From: Basidiobolus meristosporus CBS 931.73
Taxonomy: Eukaryota; Basidiobolomycota; Basidiobolomycetes; Basidiobolales; Basidiobolaceae
Direction: 5' to 3'
DNA length: 64,000 nt
Assembly: GCA_002104905.1 (NCBI GenBank)
Contig: MCFE01000023.1
Coordinates: 168,615 to 232,614 of the forward strand
Part shown: positions 55,429 to 64,000 of the stretch, one piece after another
How the letters are laid out: each line of letters begins with the position of its first letter
How positions within the stretch are numbered: position 1 is the first letter of the stretch
Notes under the pieces: generated by a model
Database searches by the model: none
Told to the model about the DNA's origin: nothing
What the model saw: the letters and a program-made list of their open reading frames with translations, nothing else
Program-made: the position numbers and the translations under genes

Positions 55429-56268
55429 TTACTTCACTTCAGCAAATGCCTGCAAAGCATCATGTAATTTGCCAAAGGTGCCATCATGCCACGCCTTTGC
55501 CTCTTCCCATTCTGCCTCAGGTAAGGTTCCTTGCATCATTTTTAACCACCCGCCGACAATGAAATCGGCATAGCTGGCCTGTGTCCCAAGCAGAAACGGT
55601 CCACTGGGTTCCCTTTTAAAGAGGTCTGCAAGCGGTGCCAGCGTGTCGCGGAAAGATTTCTTAAGCTTTTCTCGCTCTTCGCCACGCACAGCTAGATCAT
55701 CCCAGGACGCGACATTAGCACGCCGTAAGAACTCCGCTTTGGCTAGGTGTTCGATAGTCGGGTCGAAGGGCATACCGTGAGCCATGAGCTGCGTATGTAT
55801 TGTGAAAGCTGCATCAACATGCATGTTAAACACAGAGTAATCTGCGAACTCGATGTCATTGCGTTCTGACAGCGGCACAAGCATCGTCAAGTCGTGCGGA
55901 TAGCGGTAGTCAAGTTTTTGAAGAGGTAGCAGGTCACCTGAGCCAGAATCCGGGTACGTCTTCTGTAGGTGGATGGCAATATCGAAGGAATCGCCGAGTT
56001 TGGCAGTGTGTGCGGGATCGGAGAGCATCGGAAGTGTGTAAAAGTCAGATCCATCGGCTAACTTGCGCGAAGCAGGTAGACCAAATTCACGACGCACCTT
56101 TGTGATGTCCGGCAGTTGGACCCACGTAGTCGAATACGGGACTTTTTTGAAGTTAAGCGCATAGCGGGATTTCCAAGGATTCGGCGAGCAACAAGTTTTG
56201 GTAACTGGGGGACGCATGGCAATGTCGTAGAAGACAAGACTATCGGATGGGGTTGAGGAGTTTGCCAT
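55429..56268 (-). CDS. Glutathione S-transferase, fungal UstS/GtT-like
   Basis: Candidate GST that conjugates or otherwise handles glutathione. Intronless, 279 residues from the ATG at 56268. The N-terminal thioredoxin-like fold begins SLVFYDIAMRPP and contains CCSPNPWKSRYALNFKKVPY, TTWVQLPDI and FYTLPMLSDP. Then comes DSFDIAIHLQKTYPDSGS. The C-terminal helical domain has FLLGTQASYADFIVGGWLKM, the usual GST C-terminal signature. The opening matches fungal UstS-like GSTs. G+C looks higher than in the AT-rich DNA around it. Confidence 0.82.
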   Translation of the reverse strand: MANSSTPSDSLVFYDIAMRPPVTKTCCSPNPWKSRYALNFKKVPYSTTWVQLPDITKVRREFGLPASRKLADGSDFYTLPMLSDPAHTAKLGDSFDIAIHLQKTYPDSGSGDLLPLQKLDYRYPHDLTMLVPLSERNDIEFADYSVFNMHVDAAFTIHTQLMAHGMPFDPTIEHLAKAEFLRRANVASWDDLAVRGEEREKLKKSFRDTLAPLADLFKREPSGPFLLGTQASYADFIVGGWLKMMQGTLPEAEWEEAKAWHDGTFGKLHDALQAFAEVK

Positions 56269-57205
56269 TGTGGTCAATGAGGAGCTAAAGGTACACTATC
56301 AGTTCTAGTGTGGTTAAGGGTTGAGGACTCGCGATAGGTCAACTTTTGTAGTAGCACATTTGGTGACGTGGATTGTCTACCACTGTATGGCTTTCAAGCA
56401 GCATATTCTGCAGTAGCGCGATCACCGTTACGCCACTTTCCCCAATAACTAGGATCGGCTTCCTTGATAGATCCCTGGCCGCTCCCTGCAAATTCTTATT
56501 GTTTGATCATCCAATAGCTCCCCAACCCCTCATCACCCCCTAGTGAAGAAACAGTGAACACTTATGAGCTTCATAATTAATGCCAGTCCTATCCAAGCTT
56601 TACATAGCTAGAATTAGCATTTAAATAAGCCAAATTACTCCAAGGAGTGGCTAAAAAGCTAGGTTTTTTATGGGGGTGGGAATGTCACCAATGTAGGTTA
56701 AATCTTCATTTGAATTGGTACTGTGATCAGCCGGAATAGTGGAACAAGTCCAATAATCTGCATAAGAGAAGTAGAGATTTCTCCCAAGGAGAGTGGTTGG
56801 TAAAGTGCTTGTTGCACATACTTCCTGTAGGATGATATTGGGTTTGCCCCAATCTAGAATGAGGGACCCTGGAGGAATTCTACATTCAAAGGGTTTGAAA
56901 AGTTCCCAATAGTTCTACGTTAGTTACAAATATCTCCTTCACACAAAGGAATATCAACGTTATTCATTACGATTAGAGGACCAGGCTCAACTAGACCCAT
57001 CAATCGCCGTCTCTTATGGCCTCATTGGTGGTGTGAATCTAGCTTCGCCCTCTAAAGAGTAGTAAATTTACAATGTGAGGATGTCAAATTGGCCGTTGAA
57101 ATCTGGAGCTTTAATCAACTTGATGTGACGGATGCGCCCGAGAGGCTCGGCTTAAGAGACAAGAAATAGGATCCTTATCCTACCAACTTCATCTAGATTA
57201 CCAGC
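56269..57205. other. Intergenic region with a decayed telomere-element tail
   Basis: About 940 bases. It holds the GST promoter and, at 56671-56713, a degraded copy of the tail found at each subtelomeric element (listed separately). No gene recognised. Confidence 0.5.
56671..56713 (-). repeat. Fossil tail of a telomere-targeted retroelement
   Basis: Reads GGGGGTGGGAATGTCACCAA, then TGTAGGTTAAATCTTCATTT. It aligns with the tail of element F (GGGGAGGGAAAGTCACCAAG, GTAGGTGAAATCTTTATTT) with only a few changes. It keeps the G-run, the TCACC arm, and the decayed AATAAA. Same orientation as the intact elements. The hairpin's second arm is mutated (GGTTA for GGTGA). Confidence 0.65.
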
Positions 57206-58423
57206 CTACGCTCGAATAGTGTGCAAAAAGGCTGGGCTCTCAAATCCTTGCTTGACCTTCGCAATGGGGATCTGATACGCGCGGCTCGCTTCGTCTTCGC
57301 TCTGCAAGTGACGGACGTACGCTTGCGCTACCTTGAGCCAAGACGCCCTCTCTGCAGAGCTCGCTCTTGCTCCCTCCCACACCCATATCTCACGATTTGC
57401 GTTGTTGAGGATGAAAACGTCGTTTCCATCAAGGTCATTTTTGGAGATGTACCCGTCTTTAATCAATTCGAACTGCAGCTGACCGGATGCGTCACTGAGA
57501 CGTAATAGCTTGGAAGGTTGCGAGGATTTCATGGGCCCACTGGCCGGACCACGAGATGTAGAGCCCAAAGGACGAGCGTGGTGGAACGATTGAACTTCCG
57601 ACTCGTCTCCGGCACCGAGCTCTTCTAGCACACGGCGGGACCCTGAGTCCAACTGTGATAGGACTTCTACGTCGACGTGCTTGGCTAGGGTCATGTCGTG
57701 GACGATCTGGGCGGCTTTCGCTTTCTCCATTGGTGAGCAGTTTTTACCCTGCCAAACGTAAATCTTGTCACCCCGGTCGAAAATGAAGACGTCTCCTTCG
57801 TCCAGGCTGGTGGCAGAAGGCTCTACCTCGTGTACGACTACCGAGTCACGCCCGACCATGTGACCGGCGCTGAAAACGCGCAGAAGGGTCTTGGTTTCCG
57901 GTTTGACTGTCTCTTCGACATGACGGAAGCCCGAGGCCACACCACCACGGCGGATGGTTATGCGGGGAAACAAGGCCAGGAATACGTCGCTGGGCTCGGC
58001 CTGCGTTTCGCGGTGCTGGGTTGCAGTTCCTTGCAGAAACTCATCCAGCTCGACGGTCTTGTAAGCAGCTACCCCAGCCTCGTCCTGTGATGTCTTGGAA
58101 CCGAGCCAGAAGAAAGCATCGTGGCCGAGTCTATGCGTTTCCGTGCCATCCTCGTTACCAACCTTGTAGGAGTGCAGCACAATGTAGCTATCGCCTTCAA
58201 AAAAGACCCCAATTTGGTGTGGTGGAAGGGGTACAACCTCGAAGTTTTCGATACGCCAAACCTTTAAGCCGGTAGTCACACCGACGCAGCCATCGTTCCA
58301 CGCCGGCTCTGTCAAAGCAGAGTTGTACTTGACCTTGTGGTCGATATCGGTACCAATCAGCTCCACATTACTGTCTTTAATATCGTATTCCTTAGAGGGT
58401 ATGAGACCTTTATTTGATGGCAT
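57206..58423 (-). CDS. Gelsolin-repeat actin-binding protein (severin type)
   Basis: Candidate actin-severing or capping protein of the cytoplasm. Intronless, 405 residues from the ATG at 58423; the longer frame upstream has no family support. Three gelsolin repeats can be seen. The first begins VWRIENFEVVPLPPHQIGVF with FFEGDSYIVLHSYKV and FFWLGSKTSQDEAGVAAYKT. The second has LDEGDVFIFDRGDKIYVWQG. The third has LDGNDVFILNNANREIWVWE. The end is short. Three repeats is the severin architecture. Like the GST gene, it is intronless and looks richer in G+C than its flanks. It is the last protein gene before the retroelement array. Confidence 0.88.
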   Translation of the reverse strand: MPSNKGLIPSKEYDIKDSNVELIGTDIDHKVKYNSALTEPAWNDGCVGVTTGLKVWRIENFEVVPLPPHQIGVFFEGDSYIVLHSYKVGNEDGTETHRLGHDAFFWLGSKTSQDEAGVAAYKTVELDEFLQGTATQHRETQAEPSDVFLALFPRITIRRGGVASGFRHVEETVKPETKTLLRVFSAGHMVGRDSVVVHEVEPSATSLDEGDVFIFDRGDKIYVWQGKNCSPMEKAKAAQIVHDMTLAKHVDVEVLSQLDSGSRRVLEELGAGDESEVQSFHHARPLGSTSRGPASGPMKSSQPSKLLRLSDASGQLQFELIKDGYISKNDLDGNDVFILNNANREIWVWEGARASSAERASWLKVAQAYVRHLQSEDEASRAYQIPIAKVKQGFESPAFLHTIRA

Positions 58424-58468
58424 TGCAGTTAGTTTTCGAAATGGAGCGGAGCAAGGAACGAACCCTGC

Positions 58469-58475
58469 TATATAT
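58469..58475 (-). promoter_or_regulatory. TATA box of the gelsolin-type gene
   Basis: TATATAT about 46 bases upstream of the ATG at 58423, facing the gene. Confidence 0.45.
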
Positions 58476-58657
58476 CTACAGACGTGAGGTTTTGCGGGGT
58501 TGTGAAGTTGATAAGATATCACTGCGTCGATAATGTGGATGACGTACCAGCGGGATGTAGGTGGGCGGGCATCGGCCAGCTTTAAGAAATTTACCGGAAA
58601 TTTGGATTCAAGAATACGCATAAAATAAAATCACTGCATCCAACAAATTATCTCCAC

Positions 58658-58935
58658 TTAGGTGAGGGGGGGGGGTGACAATCACCAACAGGTGAAATCT
58701 TTATTTCAATAACTCAAAATAAAGAAGCTAAGTCCTACATGAATAGCAAGAGGAGTTAAAATAGAGTTAAGAGGCGTGGGACGGATAACCAAAGGATGTA
58801 AGGGCTTATCAACAATTGCAACTAAGTCAGACAAGTATAAACTGGAGGAAAGTGAGAATGGAGTATAGTGGCTGAGGTAGCTCCTCTATAAAGTGGAGAT
58901 ATGTGTAGCATAAGAAAGTACTGGGTTTTTAGAAT
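58658..58935 (-). mobile_element. Telomere-targeted element A (short, diverged)
   Basis: Starts on the + strand with TTAGGTGAGGGGGGGGGG, then the shared tail: ATCACC-AACA-GGTGAA, antisense AATAAA (TTTATTTCA), then AAAGAAGCTAAG. No coding capacity. It ends where element B begins with TTTAGGGGG. Its body does not match B-G, so it is the oldest or a separate subfamily. Confidence 0.7.
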
Positions 58936-59102
58936 TTAGGGGGAGGAAAGTCACCAAGTGGTGAAATCTTTATTTACTTATGACAAGTATCTAACAAAGC
59001 CAAGTTAATCTGAAGTTATTCCTAGAAAGCTAGGTCTGAGAGTTGAGAAGCTGAGTGGTACTATATTTCCTAGTTAGCTAGGTCTGAGAGAGGTTTCCTG
59101 GA
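58936..59102 (-). mobile_element. Telomere-targeted SINE-like element B, 5'-truncated
   Basis: Begins TTAGGGGGAGGAAAGTCACC with the AAGT-loop hairpin. It carries hairpin units 1 (59021-59034) and 3 (59069-59082) of the SINE family but lacks unit 2, and breaks off inside unit 4 (CCTGGA). The next bases are GTTAGGGT, a telomere-like join. Same family as E and G. Confidence 0.75.
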
Positions 59103-59692
59103 GTTAGGGTGTAGGTGTTATAGTAAGGGCTAGGAAAAGGTTAGAAGAGCAGGGGGTCTGGGGGACACAGTCCCCTAGAGAATAAAAAAGCAGGGGGTTT
59201 GGGGGATGCAATCCCCCATACTGCTCCCATACTCTTTAAATTCCCTTTGGATTACTTTTCTGTCATTCTTGGTTCTGGTCCCTTAGGGTTACAATTTCTC
59301 CTCTTAACACTTATCACCCTAACCATAAATATTTTAACCCTACAATTGGCACATTGTCTGGTCATATAGTGGGCATGTCTGGGCTACTATTTGTCTCCCT
59401 ATACTGTCTGTATGCTCTGTATAAGTCTTGATGACTATTTAATTAATAAATTGTTACTTCTAATGTATATCTAATAATTAATGGGAATCATCCCAAACTG
59501 GCCACAAACCCATATTTTGATAAGCTTTGGGCACCATAAATTTCACAGCCCTAATATGATAAAAAAATTCATGGCCAATGCAAATTTTCTGTAACCCAAT
59601 TGCCTTTACCAAATATCAAGTGTATCCCAAAGTTCAATATATATTATAGCTATAATAAAAACTTTATTTGACACCATTGCAACTACTACTTG
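59103..59692. other. AT-rich spacer with two G-rich hairpins
   Basis: About 590 bases between elements B and C. It opens with a telomere-like GTTAGGGTG. At 59161-59175 and 59201-59217 lie two perfect hairpins (GGGGAC-ACA-GTCCCC and GGGGGAT-GCA-ATCCCCC), inside two ~40-base repeats beginning AGCAGGGGGT. The rest is AT-rich, with no coding frame. Confidence 0.55.
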
Positions 59693-60509
59693 TTAGGGGG
59701 GGGGAGACAGTCACCAACAGGTGAAATCTTTATTTCAGTTGAAACAAAGAAGCCAGCGCTACTGTTGTAGCTTTGATACAAGAGTGTGTAGCTGAGGGGA
59801 ATTTGTAGGTAAGTTAATAAGAAGTGATGATAGTTCTTCAGTGCTCAAGACACTGTTCAGTGGGAAGGGGGGTAGCAAGAGAGGTAAGAATGACTTGTGA
59901 ACAACATTAATGAGGGGAATGTGATAAGGGTTGATATTCATCATAAAGGGAGTGTGCTGCTGCAGATATTGCTGCCAAAGGTCTGTCAAGTACTTCAGGT
60001 AGGCCAGCTTGGGTTTTTCTGACTGCAGAATATAGTGTGCAAACTTCTTGACTTCAGGATCTCCAAGTATAGTTCTCCAGCAGGAGCCAGGTGTTGTGTG
60101 GTGTGTTCTCTTCCAGGCCTTAATCAGTGGGTTGCTGCAGTTGTGAAGTCTGAGGTATAATCTGGTTCTAAGGTAGAGAAGTCTGATCTTATAGGGCATA
60201 AACCCAAAAGCACCAAGAATAGCATGTCTGTAGGGGCATTCAGGCAAATGAGGCACCAAGGAGGTAATGCACCATACTGCAAACTTGTCAAGCTTAGTGC
60301 AGTCTCTAGAAGTAAGAGAGAGAAGTGGTAAGCCAAATTCCAGGACAGGGAAGACAAACTGCTTGAGTAGAAGGAGGCAGCTGGGAGCTGAAGTTGTAGG
60401 AGGAGTAACAGCCAGTAGCTTGTGGAGTGCCTGTCTTGCCAGGATAATTCTCTTCTTCAGGTGTGCTCCAGCATCTAGACCAGTAGGAAGGAAAGGAAAG
60501 CCAAGATAT
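59693..60509 (-). mobile_element. Telomere-targeted LINE copy C, 5'-truncated
   Basis: Starts TTAGGGGGGGGGGAGACAG on the + strand with the AACA-loop hairpin and antisense AATAAA. It is nearly identical to element D over its whole length. The coding strand (minus) keeps the C-terminal ~250 residues of the reverse-transcriptase ORF, stop at 59759. It breaks off at CCAAGATAT, where D's TTAGGGG begins. The frame is open but has no start and no RT active site. Confidence 0.85.
59759..60509 (-). pseudogene. C-terminal fragment of LINE reverse transcriptase (copy C)
   Basis: Encodes YLGFPFLPTGLDAGAHLKKR, the thumb/C-terminal part LLKQFVFPVLEFGLPLLSLT, and the end TNSPQLHTLVSKLQQ. It matches element D almost residue for residue but lacks the RT palm. 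The reading frame continues by chance into the join with D. Confidence 0.8.
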
Positions 60510-61662
60510 TTAGGGGGGGAGACAGTCACCAACAGGTGAAATCTTTATTTCAGTTGAAACAAAGAAGCCAGCACTACTGTTGTAGCTTTGATACAAGAGT
60601 GTGTAGCTGAGGGGAATTTGTAGGTAAGTTAATAAGAAGTGATGATAGTTCTTCAGTGCTAAACACACTGTTCAGTGGGAAGGGGGGTAGCAAGAGAGGT
60701 AAGAATGACTTGTGAACAACATTAATGAGGGGAATGTGATAAGGATTGATATTCATCATAAAGGGAGTGTGCTGCTGCAGATATTGCTGCCAAAGGTCTG
60801 TCAAGTACTTTAGGTAGGCCAGCTTGGGCTTTTCTGACTGCAGAATAAATTCAGCAAACTTCTTGACTTCAGGATCTCCAAGTATAGTTCTCCAGCAGGA
60901 GTCAGGTGTAGTGTGGTGTGTTCTCTTCCAGGCCTTAATCAGTGGGTTGTTGCAGTTGTGAAGTCTGAGGTATAATCTGGTTCTAAGGTAGAGAAGTCTG
61001 ATCTTATAGGGCATAAACCCAAAAGCACCAAGAATAGCATGTCTGTAGGGGCATTCAGGCAAATGAGGCACCAAGGAGGTAATGCACCATACGGCAAACT
61101 TGTCAAGCTTAGTGCAGTCTCTAGAAGTAAGAGAGAGAAGCGGTAAGCCAAATTCCAGGACAGGGAAGACAAACTGCTTGAGTAGAAGGAGGCAGCTTGG
61201 AGCTGAAGTTGTAGGAGGAGTAACAGCCAGTAGCTTGTGGAGTGCCTGTCTTGCCAGGATAATTCTCTTCTTCAGGTGTGCTCCAGAGTCTAGTCCAGTA
61301 GGAAGGAAAGGAAAGCCAAGATATGTAGCAGAAACCTGAGCAGGTAGAGTGGAGTTCTCCAAGTTGATGGGAGAGCCCAAAGGTACTGTCTTTGCAATGG
61401 AAAGCTGGAGATTATTCTTCTGCAGATACTGGTGGATGGTCTGGGAGTCTTGTTGCACATTGGAGGAGGATATTCTGATGTCATCAGCAAAGAGAGTAAC
61501 CAGGCAGTCAGCTGAGAGTCTTGGGAAATCATTCAGGAAGATGGCAAACAGTATAGGACCAAGCACAGAGCCTTGAACCACTCCATTAGGAACTGAGAAC
61601 ACAGCTGATTGCTCACTTGGGTGCAGAATTCTTGCTTGTGGATCCAGAAACAGAGACCTGGG
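60510..61662 (-). mobile_element. Telomere-targeted LINE copy D, 5'-truncated, with RT active site
   Basis: Starts TTAGGGGGGGAGACAGTCACC with the shared hairpin and an antisense AATAAA 25-35 bases inside. The minus-strand coding frame runs from the truncation at 61662 to the stop at 60574. It ends at CAGAGACCTGGG, where element E begins with TTAGGGGGG. The 3' UTR is only about 64 bases. No endonuclease or ORF1 is left. Confidence 0.88.
60574..61662 (-). pseudogene. LINE reverse transcriptase, C-terminal part with FADD active site
   Basis: The frame is open to the truncation at 61662 (SLFLDPQARILHPSEQSAVF). RT motifs seen: PNGVVQGSVLGPILFAIFLN, DFPRLSADCLVTLFADD, with FADD in place of YxDD, then LQLSIAKTVPLG and YLGFPFLPTG. 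The thumb and a ~220-residue C-terminus follow. This is the palm-and-thumb half of a non-LTR RT; fingers, endonuclease and start codon are lost. I do not assign a clade. Confidence 0.85.
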
Positions 61663-62141
61663 TTAGGGGGGAGGAAAGTCACCAAGTGGTGAAATCTTTA
61701 TTTACTTATGACAAGTATCTAAAGAAGCCAAGTTAATCTGAAGTTATTCCTAGAAAGCTAGGTCTGAGAGATATCTTCCTGGTAAGCCAGGTCTGAGAGT
61801 TGAGAAGCTGAGTGGTACTATATTTCCTAGTTAGCTAGGTCTGAGAGAGGTTTCCTGGAAAGCCAGGCCTGAGAAGTGAGAATCAGAATATATCTGAGCT
61901 AAGTTATACTGGTTTGCGGTAGCTGAATTGTGGCCGGAATGGCCGGTAGACTGGGGGAACTGAGATGAATTTCTGGGCGATCACTGGCCAAATTTACTAG
62001 GCAAATCTGACCAAATAGCATTTCAAGGATTTCAGCCAATCAGAGCCTTTACTTTGCCCGATGGTTGATCAAGCCATCTCCCAATGAGCACACATCAATT
62101 TATTGATCAAATTTTGCTGGATCCAGGATTTGAACCCACAC
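61663..62141 (-). mobile_element. Telomere-targeted SINE-like element E
   Basis: Starts TTAGGGGGGAGGAAAGTCACC with the AAGT-loop hairpin and antisense AATAAA. Non-coding. Four perfect 5-bp hairpins lie at 61749-61762, 61778-61791, 61826-61839 and 61854-61867. At the far end, on the minus strand, is a B-box-like GGTTCAAATCC (62122-62132). E breaks off just 3' of it on the + strand, so it has lost its A-box. It is about 99% identical to G where both exist. Confidence 0.85.
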
Positions 62142-62270
62142 TTAGGGGAGGGAAAGTCACCAAGGTAGGTGAAATCTTTATTTGATTGCAGACAAGTCTA
62201 ACTACAAATAAAGAAGCCAGCTGGGAATAGAAGATTCCCAAAGTAAACACTAAGTTGAATATGAATAAAT

Positions 62271-62999
62271 CTAAGCTAAAGTTAAGGCAGTATCCCAGAG
62301 TACACTGGAGTTCAGGTTCATGGGGGAGTGAAGTAGATAAGCTTGAGAGATATAATAATCTTTGAGGAAGTGGGTAACAGCAGGTGAAGGGGAGTTTTTG
62401 ATAAGTGAAGTGAATCTTGAGAGCAGAGATTCCTCTAATGAGAAGGTCTTGTAAACTGGAGAATCAGGAAACTCTTTAAAGGCATGGTCAGTAGGTTCCC
62501 AGTAAAACTGGTCAGAGACATTCTGAGAGAATTGTTCAGCAATACTTTTGTCAAGTACTACCTCCAGAGTGTGATGATTGATAAATCTCATGTTAACAAT
62601 TTTGGATAAATTGTAACCTTGTTGTTTGAGATACATCCTATGCTCAGATATAGGAATGAACTCCACATTGGCAAAGTAGCAGACAGCCCAGTCAGTAGCA
62701 GGAGGCAAAGCAGAAGTAGCAGGAAACTTTCTTTTAGTCTTGGGAGGAGCAGCAGGATGTCTTGAGGAAGCAGGAACAGGCTTTTTGACAGCTTCAGAGT
62801 AGGAAGAGTGAGCAGGAGCAGATGATTCTTGGGGAGTCTTGTTGACAGGAACAGCTGGCAGAGAGACAATAGATTCTTGCAGATCAGAGAAGGCAGAAAA
62901 CAGCTTTTGAACTTGTTTCTTGAGTAAAGCATTTTCAGCTTCAACAAGTGCAAGCCTTTCCTCAAGGAAGGAAATCTGAAGGGAATGGAGTGAAGGCAT
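62271..62999 (-). CDS. LINE ORF1-like protein with coiled coil
   Basis: 242 residues from the ATG at 62999; the frame extends upstream through the tandem repeat without ATG. It starts MPSLHSLQISFLEERLALVE and continues AENALLKKQVQKLFSAFSDL, a leucine-zipper-like coiled coil. A Pro/Ala/Ser/Lys linker (VKKPVPASSRHPAAPPKTKR) precedes a compact domain: DWAVCYFANVEFIPISEHRM, NMRFINHHTLEVVLDKSIAE. Coiled coil plus basic linker plus RRM-like domain is the layout of LINE ORF1 proteins, which bind their own RNA. No CCHC zinc knuckle. The frame is intact. Assignment is by layout and by the shared tail with elements C and D. Confidence 0.7.
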   Translation of the reverse strand: MPSLHSLQISFLEERLALVEAENALLKKQVQKLFSAFSDLQESIVSLPAVPVNKTPQESSAPAHSSYSEAVKKPVPASSRHPAAPPKTKRKFPATSALPPATDWAVCYFANVEFIPISEHRMYLKQQGYNLSKIVNMRFINHHTLEVVLDKSIAEQFSQNVSDQFYWEPTDHAFKEFPDSPVYKTFSLEESLLSRFTSLIKNSPSPAVTHFLKDYYISQAYLLHSPMNLNSSVLWDTALTLA

Positions 63000-63040
63000 A
63001 AGAAATAAGAAGAAGAGGGTAGGATGGGGTGGGTGGGAGG

Positions 63041-63267
63041 GAAAATTAGCAGGGAGAAGAGAAGGAAGGAGCAAAAATTCCAGAAGTCAGAATTTATAGA
63101 TGGATGGACAAGGGTAGATGGATGGATTATTCCTGAGTTAGGAAAATTAGCAGGGAGAAGAGAAGGAAGGAGCAAAAATTCCAGAAGTCAGAATTTATAG
63201 ATGGATGGACAAGGGTAGATGGATGGATTATTCCTGAGTTAGGAAAATTAGCAGGGAGAAGAGAAGG
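63041..63267. repeat. 101-base tandem repeat in element F
   Basis: GAAAATTAGCAGGGAGAAGA recurs at 63041, 63142 and 63243, a period of 101 bases, two full units and a partial third. It lies at the 5' end of element F's transcript. 5' tandem repeats in LINEs may act as promoter units; that is inference. Confidence 0.85.
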
Positions 63268-63268
63268 G

Positions 63269-63795
63269 TTAGGGGGAGGAAAGTCACCAAGTGGTGAAAT
63301 CTTTATTTACTTATGACAAGTATCTAAAGAAGCCAAGTTAATCTGAAGTTATTCCTAGAAAGCTAGGTCTGAGAGATATCTTCCTGGTAAGCCAGGTCTG
63401 AGAGTTGAGAAGCTGAGTGGTACTATATTTCCTAGTTAGCTAGGTCTGAGAGAGGTTTCCTGGAAAGCCAGGCCTGAGAAGTGAGAATCTGAATATATCT
63501 GAGCTAAGTTATACTGGTTTGCGGTAGCTGAATTGTGGCCGGAATGGCCAGTAGACTGGGGGAACTGAGATGAATTTCTGGGCGATCACTGGCCAAATTT
63601 ACTAGGCAAATCTGGCCAATTAGCATTTCAAGGATTTCAGCCAATCAGAGCCTTTACTTTGCCCGATGGTTGATCAAGCCATCTCCCAATGAGCACACAT
63701 CAATTTATTAATCAAATTTTGCTGGATCCAGGATTTGAACCCACAACCATGGGTATGGAAGGGTTAGGGATAACCACAAGGCTAAGGGTTCTTGG
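63269..63795 (-). mobile_element. Telomere-targeted SINE-like element G, full-length, telomere-adjacent
   Basis: Starts TTAGGGGGAGGAAAGTCACC with the AAGT-loop hairpin. The four hairpins are at 63354-63367, 63383-63396, 63431-63444 and 63459-63472. At its 5' end (minus strand) lie an A-box-like TAGCCTTGTGG and, 43 bases on, a perfect B-box GGTTCAAATCC, the spacing of a tRNA promoter. It abuts the TTAGGG array at 63796. Non-coding, about 520 bases. Confidence 0.85.
63734..63787 (-). promoter_or_regulatory. Type-2 Pol III promoter (A and B boxes) of SINE G
   Basis: Minus strand: TAGCCTTGTGG (A-box; one mismatch to TRGCNNARNGG) starts 43 bases before GGTTCAAATCC (a perfect GGTTCRANNCC B-box). 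This is the spacing in tRNA genes. The surrounding bases do not fold into a full cloverleaf, so this is a tRNA-derived head, not a functional tRNA. Confidence 0.7.
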
Positions 63796-64000
63796 TTAGG
63801 GTTAGGGTTAGGGTTAGGGTTAGGGTTAGGGTTAGGGTTAGGGTTAGGGTTAGGGTTAGGGTTAGGGTTAGGGTTAGGGTTAGGGTTAGGGTTAGGGTTA
63901 GGGTTAGGGTTAGGGTTAGGGTTAGGGTTAGGGTTAGGGTTAGGGTTAGGGTTAGGGTTAGGGTTAGGGTTAGGGTTAGGGTTAGGGTTAGGTTAGGGTT
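63796..64000 (+). repeat. Telomere, TTAGGG repeats
   Basis: About 34 head-to-tail TTAGGG units reading toward the window's end, with one short TTAGG unit in the last 20 bases. The orientation (G-rich strand 5'-3' toward the end) shows this is the true right end of the chromosome. Confidence 0.98.

Follow-up and report, generated by a model that had tools for sequence, protein, structure and literature searches.

Telomere-targeted long interspersed nuclear elements (LINEs) are a known kind of mobile element, and the described systems closest to the one reported here come mainly from insects and fungi. In Drosophila, HeT-A, TART and TAHRE attach to the 3' OH of the chromosome end and build tandem arrays, where an element carrying only the first open reading frame (ORF1) accompanies a partner that bears a reverse transcriptase (RT), as set out in the available portion of PMC4700185; in Bombyx mori, SART1 (PMC7265360, in the part at hand) and TRAS1 are telomere-specific LINEs that lie beside telomeric repeats. 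Among fungi, the telomere LINEs MoTeR of Magnaporthe oryzae, FoTeR of Fusarium oxysporum and Cnl1 of Cryptococcus neoformans are all of the R2/CRE kind, according to the accessible parts of their descriptions (PMC7367193, PMC12857005, PMC12810828) and of reviews (PMC4700185, PMC10088271, PMC8381367). The subject of this report is a 64,000-nt stretch of the genome of Basidiobolus meristosporus CBS 931.73 (contig MCFE01000023.1, positions 168,615 to 232,614), hereafter the window, whose right end is a chromosome end and which carries, inward of a terminal TTAGGG array, seven head-to-tail segments that lie in one orientation and each start with the same tail. These segments quite probably belong to a family of telomere-attaching retroelements of the kind lacking long terminal repeats (non-LTR), in which several classes share one tail and are copied onto chromosome ends beside telomerase.

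The locus resembles each of the described systems in part. With MoTeR1 and MoTeR2 it has in common a fungal host with TTAGGG telomeres, head-to-tail arrays, 5' truncation and intervening TTAGGG tracts, as well as a partner that lacks RT and has common ends, and internal relics (available parts of PMC7367193 and PMC8381367). FoTeR is likewise a telomere-linked LINE whose 3' end is joined to telomere repeats and which has upstream tandem repeats (PMC12857005, in part), and Cnl1 likewise forms fungal LINE arrays at chromosome ends with 5'-truncated insertions (PMC12810828, in part). The combination of an ORF1-only element and an RT-bearing one, known from HeT-A and TART, is also found here, where the former would depend on the latter. 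Of the general features of telomere-targeted non-LTR elements, a LINE RT, a 3' join to the telomeric repeat and, in the sample studied, end-proximal copies that run one way are all present.

The initial annotation of the window had described seven head-to-tail elements with the same tail and a single orientation, and this was borne out: the 16-mer GGTGAAATCTTTATTT has seven exact matches in the window, all on the plus strand and all within 58691-63308. With up to three mismatches it has 11, against a mean of 1.03 and a maximum of 4 in shuffles of the whole window searched at that same tolerance, a control that applies to the mismatch-tolerant count and not to the exact-only one. On the plus strand, a segment starts with a G-run, followed by a 5-bp hairpin (TCACC...GGTGA) and AAATCTTTATTT; in the RNA sense, which is the minus strand, it ends in AAUAAAGAUUU-CACC-loop-GGUGAC-...-C-run-UAA. 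The motif TTAGGGG(G)n, said to open each element, precedes the tail in six of the seven segments, the innermost (58658-58690) being degenerate (TTAGGTGAGGGGGGGGGGTGACAATCACC). Outermost stands the (TTAGGG)n telomere array on the plus strand (63794-64000; 34.7 copies of 6 bp, with 32 perfect repeats at 63796-63987). By best match, the seven segments comprise two LINE pieces, one full and one truncated short interspersed nuclear element (SINE), one SINE-tailed segment with an otherwise unmatched body, one ORF1-only element and one tail whose body is largely unmatched. The term "LINE array" therefore suits the two LINE A pieces, the remainder being SINE, ORF1-only or without a class match, and a plain LINE array was rejected because the element classes differ in body. 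One tail pattern is found on all four classes, which account for 38 (LINE A), 23 (SINE, class B), 10 (ORF1-only, class C) and 6 (LINE D) of the 77 tails read in the window and in 20 further pieces of the assembly (L031-L050); the search patterns fix the hairpin stem and the tail core, so that the conservation of these parts among copies is partly built in. An Rfam scan of the region gave two long non-coding RNA matches, both far under their gathering scores.

Searched genome-wide (89.0 Mb in 1311 contigs, numbered from C1, with the window on C458), the tail pattern GTCACCN{2,10}GGTGAAATCTTTA yields 1,566 matches, 1435 on the plus and 131 on the minus strand, and the exact 16-mer GGTGAAATCTTTATTT yields 1555 and 150. 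The same bias is seen for (TTAGGG)5, with 6978 forward and 73 reverse matches, which suggests that contigs with a telomere mostly have it at their right end as stored, and probably reflects a contig-orientation bias of the assembly. A TTAGGG stands 6-12 nt ahead of the tail in 1290 cases (forward and reverse together, with a pattern slightly looser at its far end than that used for the 1,566), and sampled copies lie near contig ends with the 3' end inward, as the initial annotation had anticipated. The 20 pieces, of at most 10 kb each and picked where tails were listed, contain 70 tails, 66 plus and 4 minus; nine end in a telomere array, and none holds both orientations, an arrangement that the initial annotation had regarded as speaking against its own proposal. 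Nearness to ends was assessed on a sample of 28 contigs with matches among C1-C95, the full extent being known for 16. Listed tails are confined to the last 23 kb of C1 (345 kb), the last 11 kb of C2 (264 kb) and the last 8 kb of C3 (172 kb), and no minus-strand tail among the matches listed is more than 25 kb from the low end of its contig. C424 and C979 carry minus tails at 1.2-1.3 kb and plus tails at 311.6 and 262.9 kb, respectively, orientations that fit the two ends of one chromosome each. A position near the contig end, in one orientation and with the 3' end inward, was thus the rule in the sample, with C27, C80, C558 and C726 as exceptions or unclear cases. Terminal arrays of at least 32 perfect repeats were listed for 20 contigs. 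It was also observed, by eye, that long frames resembling a copia-type element stand amid the telomeric elements of L035, L039, L045 and L046.

The joins between segments provide a record of how elements came to follow one another. TTA directly precedes the G-run in 60 of 74 distinct joins. The length of the G-run differs by class, with medians of 6 (A), 5 (B) and 4 (C and D; Kruskal-Wallis p about 1e-8 over 71 of the 74 joins, three with odd tails having been excluded), so that part of the C-run at least looks encoded. A run of six or more T within 30 nt of a join occurs once in the window and the 20 pieces, as part of the neighbour's own sequence; elements thus end without poly(A), in agreement with the initial annotation, and no poly(A) appears to have been copied. 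When the inner neighbour of each join was compared with intact copies, a boundary could be computed in 60 of 76 joins from the window and the pieces: neighbours are broken at many different points, and 40 of the added parts consist of telomeric sequence only, the other 20 being degenerate, bearing an extra letter or having an unclear boundary. The claim that several elements break off where the next TTAGGGG begins is consequently real for many joins. In the 35 joins that remain after exclusion of 41 (12 for want of an intact copy, 20 whose added part is not purely telomeric, 4 because the boundary is too distant, and 5 as duplicates), the broken end overlaps the telomere phase by 0, 1, 2, 3 or 4 nt in 11, 8, 7, 6 and 3 cases, so that in-phase seeds of 1-4 nt are present in 24 and of at least 3 nt in nine; the 35 include three full-length SINE ends of doubtful boundary (L033:4944, L039:6135, L042:8150), one of which counts among the nine. 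The mean seed is 1.49 nt, against 0.75 for random joins whose cut points were drawn from three representative elements only, and 7 of 20000 simulations reach it. In 10 of the 19 joins with exactly TTA, counted by eye, C comes before it. Among truncated MoTeRs, 17 of 23 have seeds of 1-7 nt and a terminal C is present in five of the six exceptions (PMC7367193, in part), and the similar in-phase seeds and C before TTA found here favour telomerase seeding of the end before an element attaches.

Tract length points to the kind of end that receives an element. Genome-wide, 1290 tails follow at least one perfect TTAGGG, 289 at least two and 63 at least three, the step ratio being 0.22 each time, and 1001 of the 1290, about three quarters, are single-repeat joins. 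The short tracts at most joins, as against the 32 or more repeats at tips, suggest that elements were mostly placed on ends with hardly any telomere left and not in the midst of mature arrays.

LINE A, which would supply the enzyme, is a 4.7-kb element with repeats at about 102-bp offset at its 5' end, an ORF1 with an open frame of 523 aa, and an ORF2. The latter matches RVT_1 at 2.6e-25 and carries a FADD motif in its RT; its best solved relative is LINE-1 ORF2p (6e-13), and a second structure chain, which we take to be R2, scores 0.095. Among the best 49 of 1385 candidates, a choice that favours intact copies, all 49 ORF2 copies are full-length, 45 are stop-free, and identity is 99-100%. Five proteins related to LINE A ORF2 (P0010-P0014) are 45-83% identical to it and lie on contigs of 3.9-5.7 kb. 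LINE D constitutes a second RT family, of which only truncated or broken copies were seen. As judged from these sequences, LINE A is L1-like with an APE-type endonuclease (EN) domain, unlike the fungal telomere LINEs of the R2/CRE kind, and the system does look recent and active. A REL-type element was rejected because the N-terminal motifs Y-x-PP, GDLN and SDH align with APE LINEs, no dedicated REL model search having been made. Athena is an EN-deficient, Penelope-like telomere element, with a Penelope-type RT and no APE endonuclease; such an element was rejected on the RT nearest to LINE-1 ORF2p, the FADD motif and the APE-type domain, likewise without a dedicated Penelope model search. In the window, LINE A is represented by two 5'-truncated copies on the minus strand, one with part of the RT and the ORF2 C terminus (60512-61659; RVT_1 2.6e-11; 97.9% over 1136 bp), the other with the ORF2 C terminus and the 3' untranslated region (59694-60511; 97.8% over 804 bp), and the innermost segment (58658-58935, minus) has a degenerate class A tail with a body matched over 27 nt only. 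An RT piece from the window has matches of 98% and 93% to two proteins of B. meristosporus CBS 931.73. As a side observation, the public gene model P0001 (K493DRAFT_353650) fuses three in-frame LINE A C-terminal pieces, indicating that arrays of these elements have been annotated as host genes.

The class C element measures 1.1 kb, encodes one ORF1, 242 aa long, and lacks an RT. Its copy in the window (62142-63265, minus; 1127-bp match) has a TTAGGGG join at the 3' end, a reading frame at 62274-62999 (minus) with a leucine-zipper-like N part and a C-terminal domain common to LINE A ORF1 (36%, E 5e-21), and, by repeat scan, 101-bp tandem units at its 5' end (63040-63267, minus). Tandem units of about 101-102 bp are in fact seen at the 5' ends of both the ORF1-only element and LINE A (L042:2944-7623), and recall the promoter monomers of mouse L1. 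A class D copy in L038 is of the same ORF1-only kind, its protein being 45% identical to class C ORF1. A genome search in which 150 of 553 candidates were scored, best first and hence in favour of intact copies, gave 154 matches; by eye, 66 of the 70 listed rows that span residues 1-242 are stop-free, and the matches are spread over more than 100 different contigs. Ratios of nonsynonymous to synonymous substitution rates (dN/dS) against the window copy are 0.29, 0.24, 0.21, 0.07 and 0.44 for five copies of 67-242 codons, the copy at 0.44 having two internal stops; no usable value was obtained from three others, which align over 22-23 codons. Class C ORF1 is thus under purifying selection. The one relative detected outside this genome, at E up to 0.001, is a partial annotated protein of Basidiobolus ranarum (49%).

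Class B is a SINE of 0.51 kb (consensus 513 nt), with 13 copies of 505-560 bp that have nearly the same 5' end and a mean identity of 0.968. The copy adjoining the telomere array by its 5' end is full-length (63266-63793, minus, by best match to the class; tail GTCACCAAGTGGTGAAATC at 63283), a second is 5'-truncated and matches positions 49-511 (61660-62141, minus), and a third segment (58936-59693, minus) has the SINE tail and resembles the 3' end of the SINE over 153 nt (83%), the remainder being without a match. The RNA polymerase III (pol III) A and B boxes have the consensus TRGYNNARNNG and GGTTCRANNCC. The head of the SINE holds, from its nt 10, an A-box-like TAGCCTTGTGG (63774-63784, minus, one mismatch) and an exact B box GGTTCAAATCC (63731-63741, minus), 43 nt apart start-to-start, a pair that arises in 10 of 20000 shuffles. 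The label "tRNA-headed" rests on these boxes and their spacing, given that neither ARAGORN nor Rfam calls a tRNA on the SINE, and a clean tRNA gene as its head was rejected on that ground. The pol III terminator TTTT is absent from the 513-nt consensus, as it is from 61 of 2000 dinucleotide shuffles. With up to three mismatches, the SINE head has 261 matches genome-wide, 249 minus and 12 plus. Its 3' tail, AAATAAAGATTTCACC-hairpin-C-run, is common to SINE and LINE A copies; its core formed part of the search pattern. It was further observed that the head (63742-63773 in the window, and also the consensus) includes CCCTAACCC, a 9-mer of the C-strand telomere, between the A and B boxes.

The host itself possesses telomerase, as two stretches of C880 score above the cut-off for the TERT RNA-binding domain (PF12009); an in-frame TAG lies in one of the two. 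A mechanism can thus be proposed that builds on the observed structure, sample orientation, joins, tract lengths, open ORFs, ORF1 selection and TERT presence. LINE A, with ORF1 followed by an APE-type EN and RT, would supply the enzyme, which LINE D, the ORF1-only elements and the SINE, sharing its 3' tail, would use in trans. The cycle would start from a chromosome end that has lost its telomere or from a truncated element, as the structure of the arrays displays. Telomerase, to judge from the joins and from the presence of TERT, would then add 0-2 TTAGGG units on a seed of 0-4 nt. The RT would bind the AAUAAA-hairpin-C-run region at the RNA 3' end, whose C-run, perhaps as CCCUAA, would pair with the GGG/TTAGGG 3' end and allow priming without a nick. 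The RT would next copy the G-run and then the element onto the chromosome end, often halting early, in keeping with the observed orientation, G-run and 5' truncation. Finally, either the cycle would repeat or telomerase would cap the end with a long array, both outcomes being visible as structure.

Several points weigh against this account. The UAA at the RNA end is putative: the initial annotation had the RNA itself ending in UAA, which is not supported as stated, since the TTA of the joins can equally come from telomerase seeding of a broken end. The broader idea of telomere-directed retroposition primed from the chromosome 3' end fits orientation and joins, for a mixed LINE, SINE and ORF1-only group and not simply a LINE array. 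Fourteen of the 74 joins have no TTA before the G-run. An ORF1 at C558:97994-98629 and an ORF2 at C726:56456-59221 lie on the plus strand, where minus was expected, and could be inverted copies or something else; C27 and C80 bear tails without a telomere array at the near end; and tip arrays are not uniformly long, those of L031 and L046 being interrupted. In the pieces read, every LINE A copy lacks at least one of the two ORFs in complete form: in L042 and L050 the ORF1 frame is whole and ORF2 is split; in L034 and L049 it is ORF2 that is whole and ORF1 that is incomplete. The EN domain, lastly, is kept, its motifs Y-x-PP, GD(L/F)N (GDLN in LINE A) and SDH being retained in LINE A and its relatives in the alignment with APE LINEs, and the EN of relative P0014 scores 27.5 bits, just above the curated cut-off of 27.4, so that nicking inside telomere repeats would be possible.

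The alternative that survives best departs from the proposed mechanism at the telomerase step, and holds that the RNA 3' end carries one to two CCCUAA units, so that the element, and not telomerase, would be the source of the TTAGGG at the join. The uninterrupted ...TTAGGGTTA before the G-run never exceeds 9 nt in the 74 joins read, the added tracts of 3-12 nt in the 35 joins occur in many phases, the C-run has a class-specific length, and AAUAAA ends 33-35 nt ahead of the C-run-UAA end in four class tails, all of which suit such a template. However, the 63 joins with at least three perfect repeats indicate that 9 nt is no hard limit on the join tract, and truncated MoTeRs have telomerase joins with similar seeds and a similar C ahead of the repeat (PMC7367193, available part); templating from the RNA is therefore possible, if on balance improbable.

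Insertion by EN cutting within mature telomere arrays, in the manner of SART/TRAS or MoTeR, where the G strand would be nicked between repeats and primed there, appears unlikely. It draws on the EN motifs retained in full-length ORF2s, on the score of P0014 and on the TTAGGG tracts, of half a repeat to more than 20, that separate MoTeR copies (PMC7367193, in part). A random cut in an array of at least 32 repeats should nonetheless leave long proximal arrays, and three or more repeats are present in only 63 of the 1290 joins with at least one. In addition, the EN matches at the N-terminal position of LINE A ORF2, P0010 and P0011 lie below the curated Pfam cut-off, and the xET motif reads IDV in these three, the only clade members covering the site, as opposed to ET in the four outgroup LINEs that cover it.

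A still less probable scenario is that a few original insertions were spread among ends by break-induced replication or unequal exchange, as occurs in MoTeR arrays (PMC7367193, in part). An identical truncation point followed by a terminal array at two ends, C22 and C25, and the recurrence of SINE 5'-end joins among those read would be expected of such exchange, which could add copies but does not itself make the join of TTAGGG and tail; moreover, most joins are distinct, the 74 in the sequence read having many truncation points and G-run lengths, and the order of classes varies along arrays. That the arrays are an assembly artefact or chance repeats is hardly credible, the odd contig orientation of (TTAGGG)5 (6978 against 73) being outweighed by seven exact 16-mers within 5 kb where shuffles average 1.03 even with three mismatches, by ORF1 copies with dN/dS of 0.07-0.44, and by ORF1 matches on more than 100 contigs by eye.

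Further inward, between two genes, stands a decayed class-C-like tail (56674-56715, minus; two mismatches at 56696), possibly an internalised former chromosome end like the relics of MoTeR. Its flanks are a GST-like gene (55429-56295, minus) and a gelsolin-repeat gene (frame 57206-58630, minus).

Retroposition onto chromosome ends beside telomerase can also be put in a more speculative form, possible rather than probable, as a three-part healing system coupled to telomerase: one L1-like enzyme would serve a LINE, a pol III SINE and a selected ORF1-only "Gag" element in trans, all recognised by one tail, the hairpin/C-run tail would mimic the telomerase template, and attachment would overtake telomerase after a single repeat at fresh breaks in about three quarters of the TTAGGG joins. 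The more than 1000 joins make a contest between telomerase and retrotransposon at broken ends readable from sequence and open to test. In open-licence papers on Basidiobolus telomeres and retrotransposons and on telomeric SINEs, no account of this system was found. As far as these papers show, the new elements are an L1-like/APE lineage at the telomeres of a fungus, a C-run tail without poly(A), a SINE partner and a selected ORF1-only partner; the last two are the most surprising parts, and the LINE/SINE partnership would be put to a new use if a SINE is directed to chromosome ends by the tail that it has in common with a LINE.

The comparison with known systems brings out these differences. 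SART1 and TRAS1 carry an APE-type EN, and a domain of this type is present here with xET as IDV, any activity being predicted from sequence; they have a poly(A) tail, whereas the joins here are mostly single-repeat and without poly(A). HeT-A ends in oligo(A), in contrast to the C-run found here, and Drosophila has no telomerase, whereas TERT is present here and TTAGGG arrays stand at the tips. The half-LINE HAL1 of mammals is an ORF1-only LINE derivative like class C, but is poly(A)-tailed and not telomeric. Among the fungal systems, as far as the accessible parts of their accounts tell, MoTeR1 has a putative REL endonuclease, where an APE-type EN and an L1-like RT are found here, and the tails differ; in MoTeR2, a sequence of no obvious function stands in place of the RT region, whereas the role of partner falls here to a tRNA-headed SINE and a selected ORF1-only element. 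FoTeR also has a REL endonuclease, and its 3' ends are followed by about 3-7 copies of TAACCC, as against mostly one here; the terms SINE and non-autonomous are absent from its account (PMC12857005). Cnl1 has an R2-superfamily RT close to that of MoTeR and inserts also into a gene (PMC12810828, in part). If the proposed reading is true, B. meristosporus would combine a HeT-A/TART-like division of labour with a SINE, in an early-diverging fungus that keeps telomerase and TTAGGG repeats.

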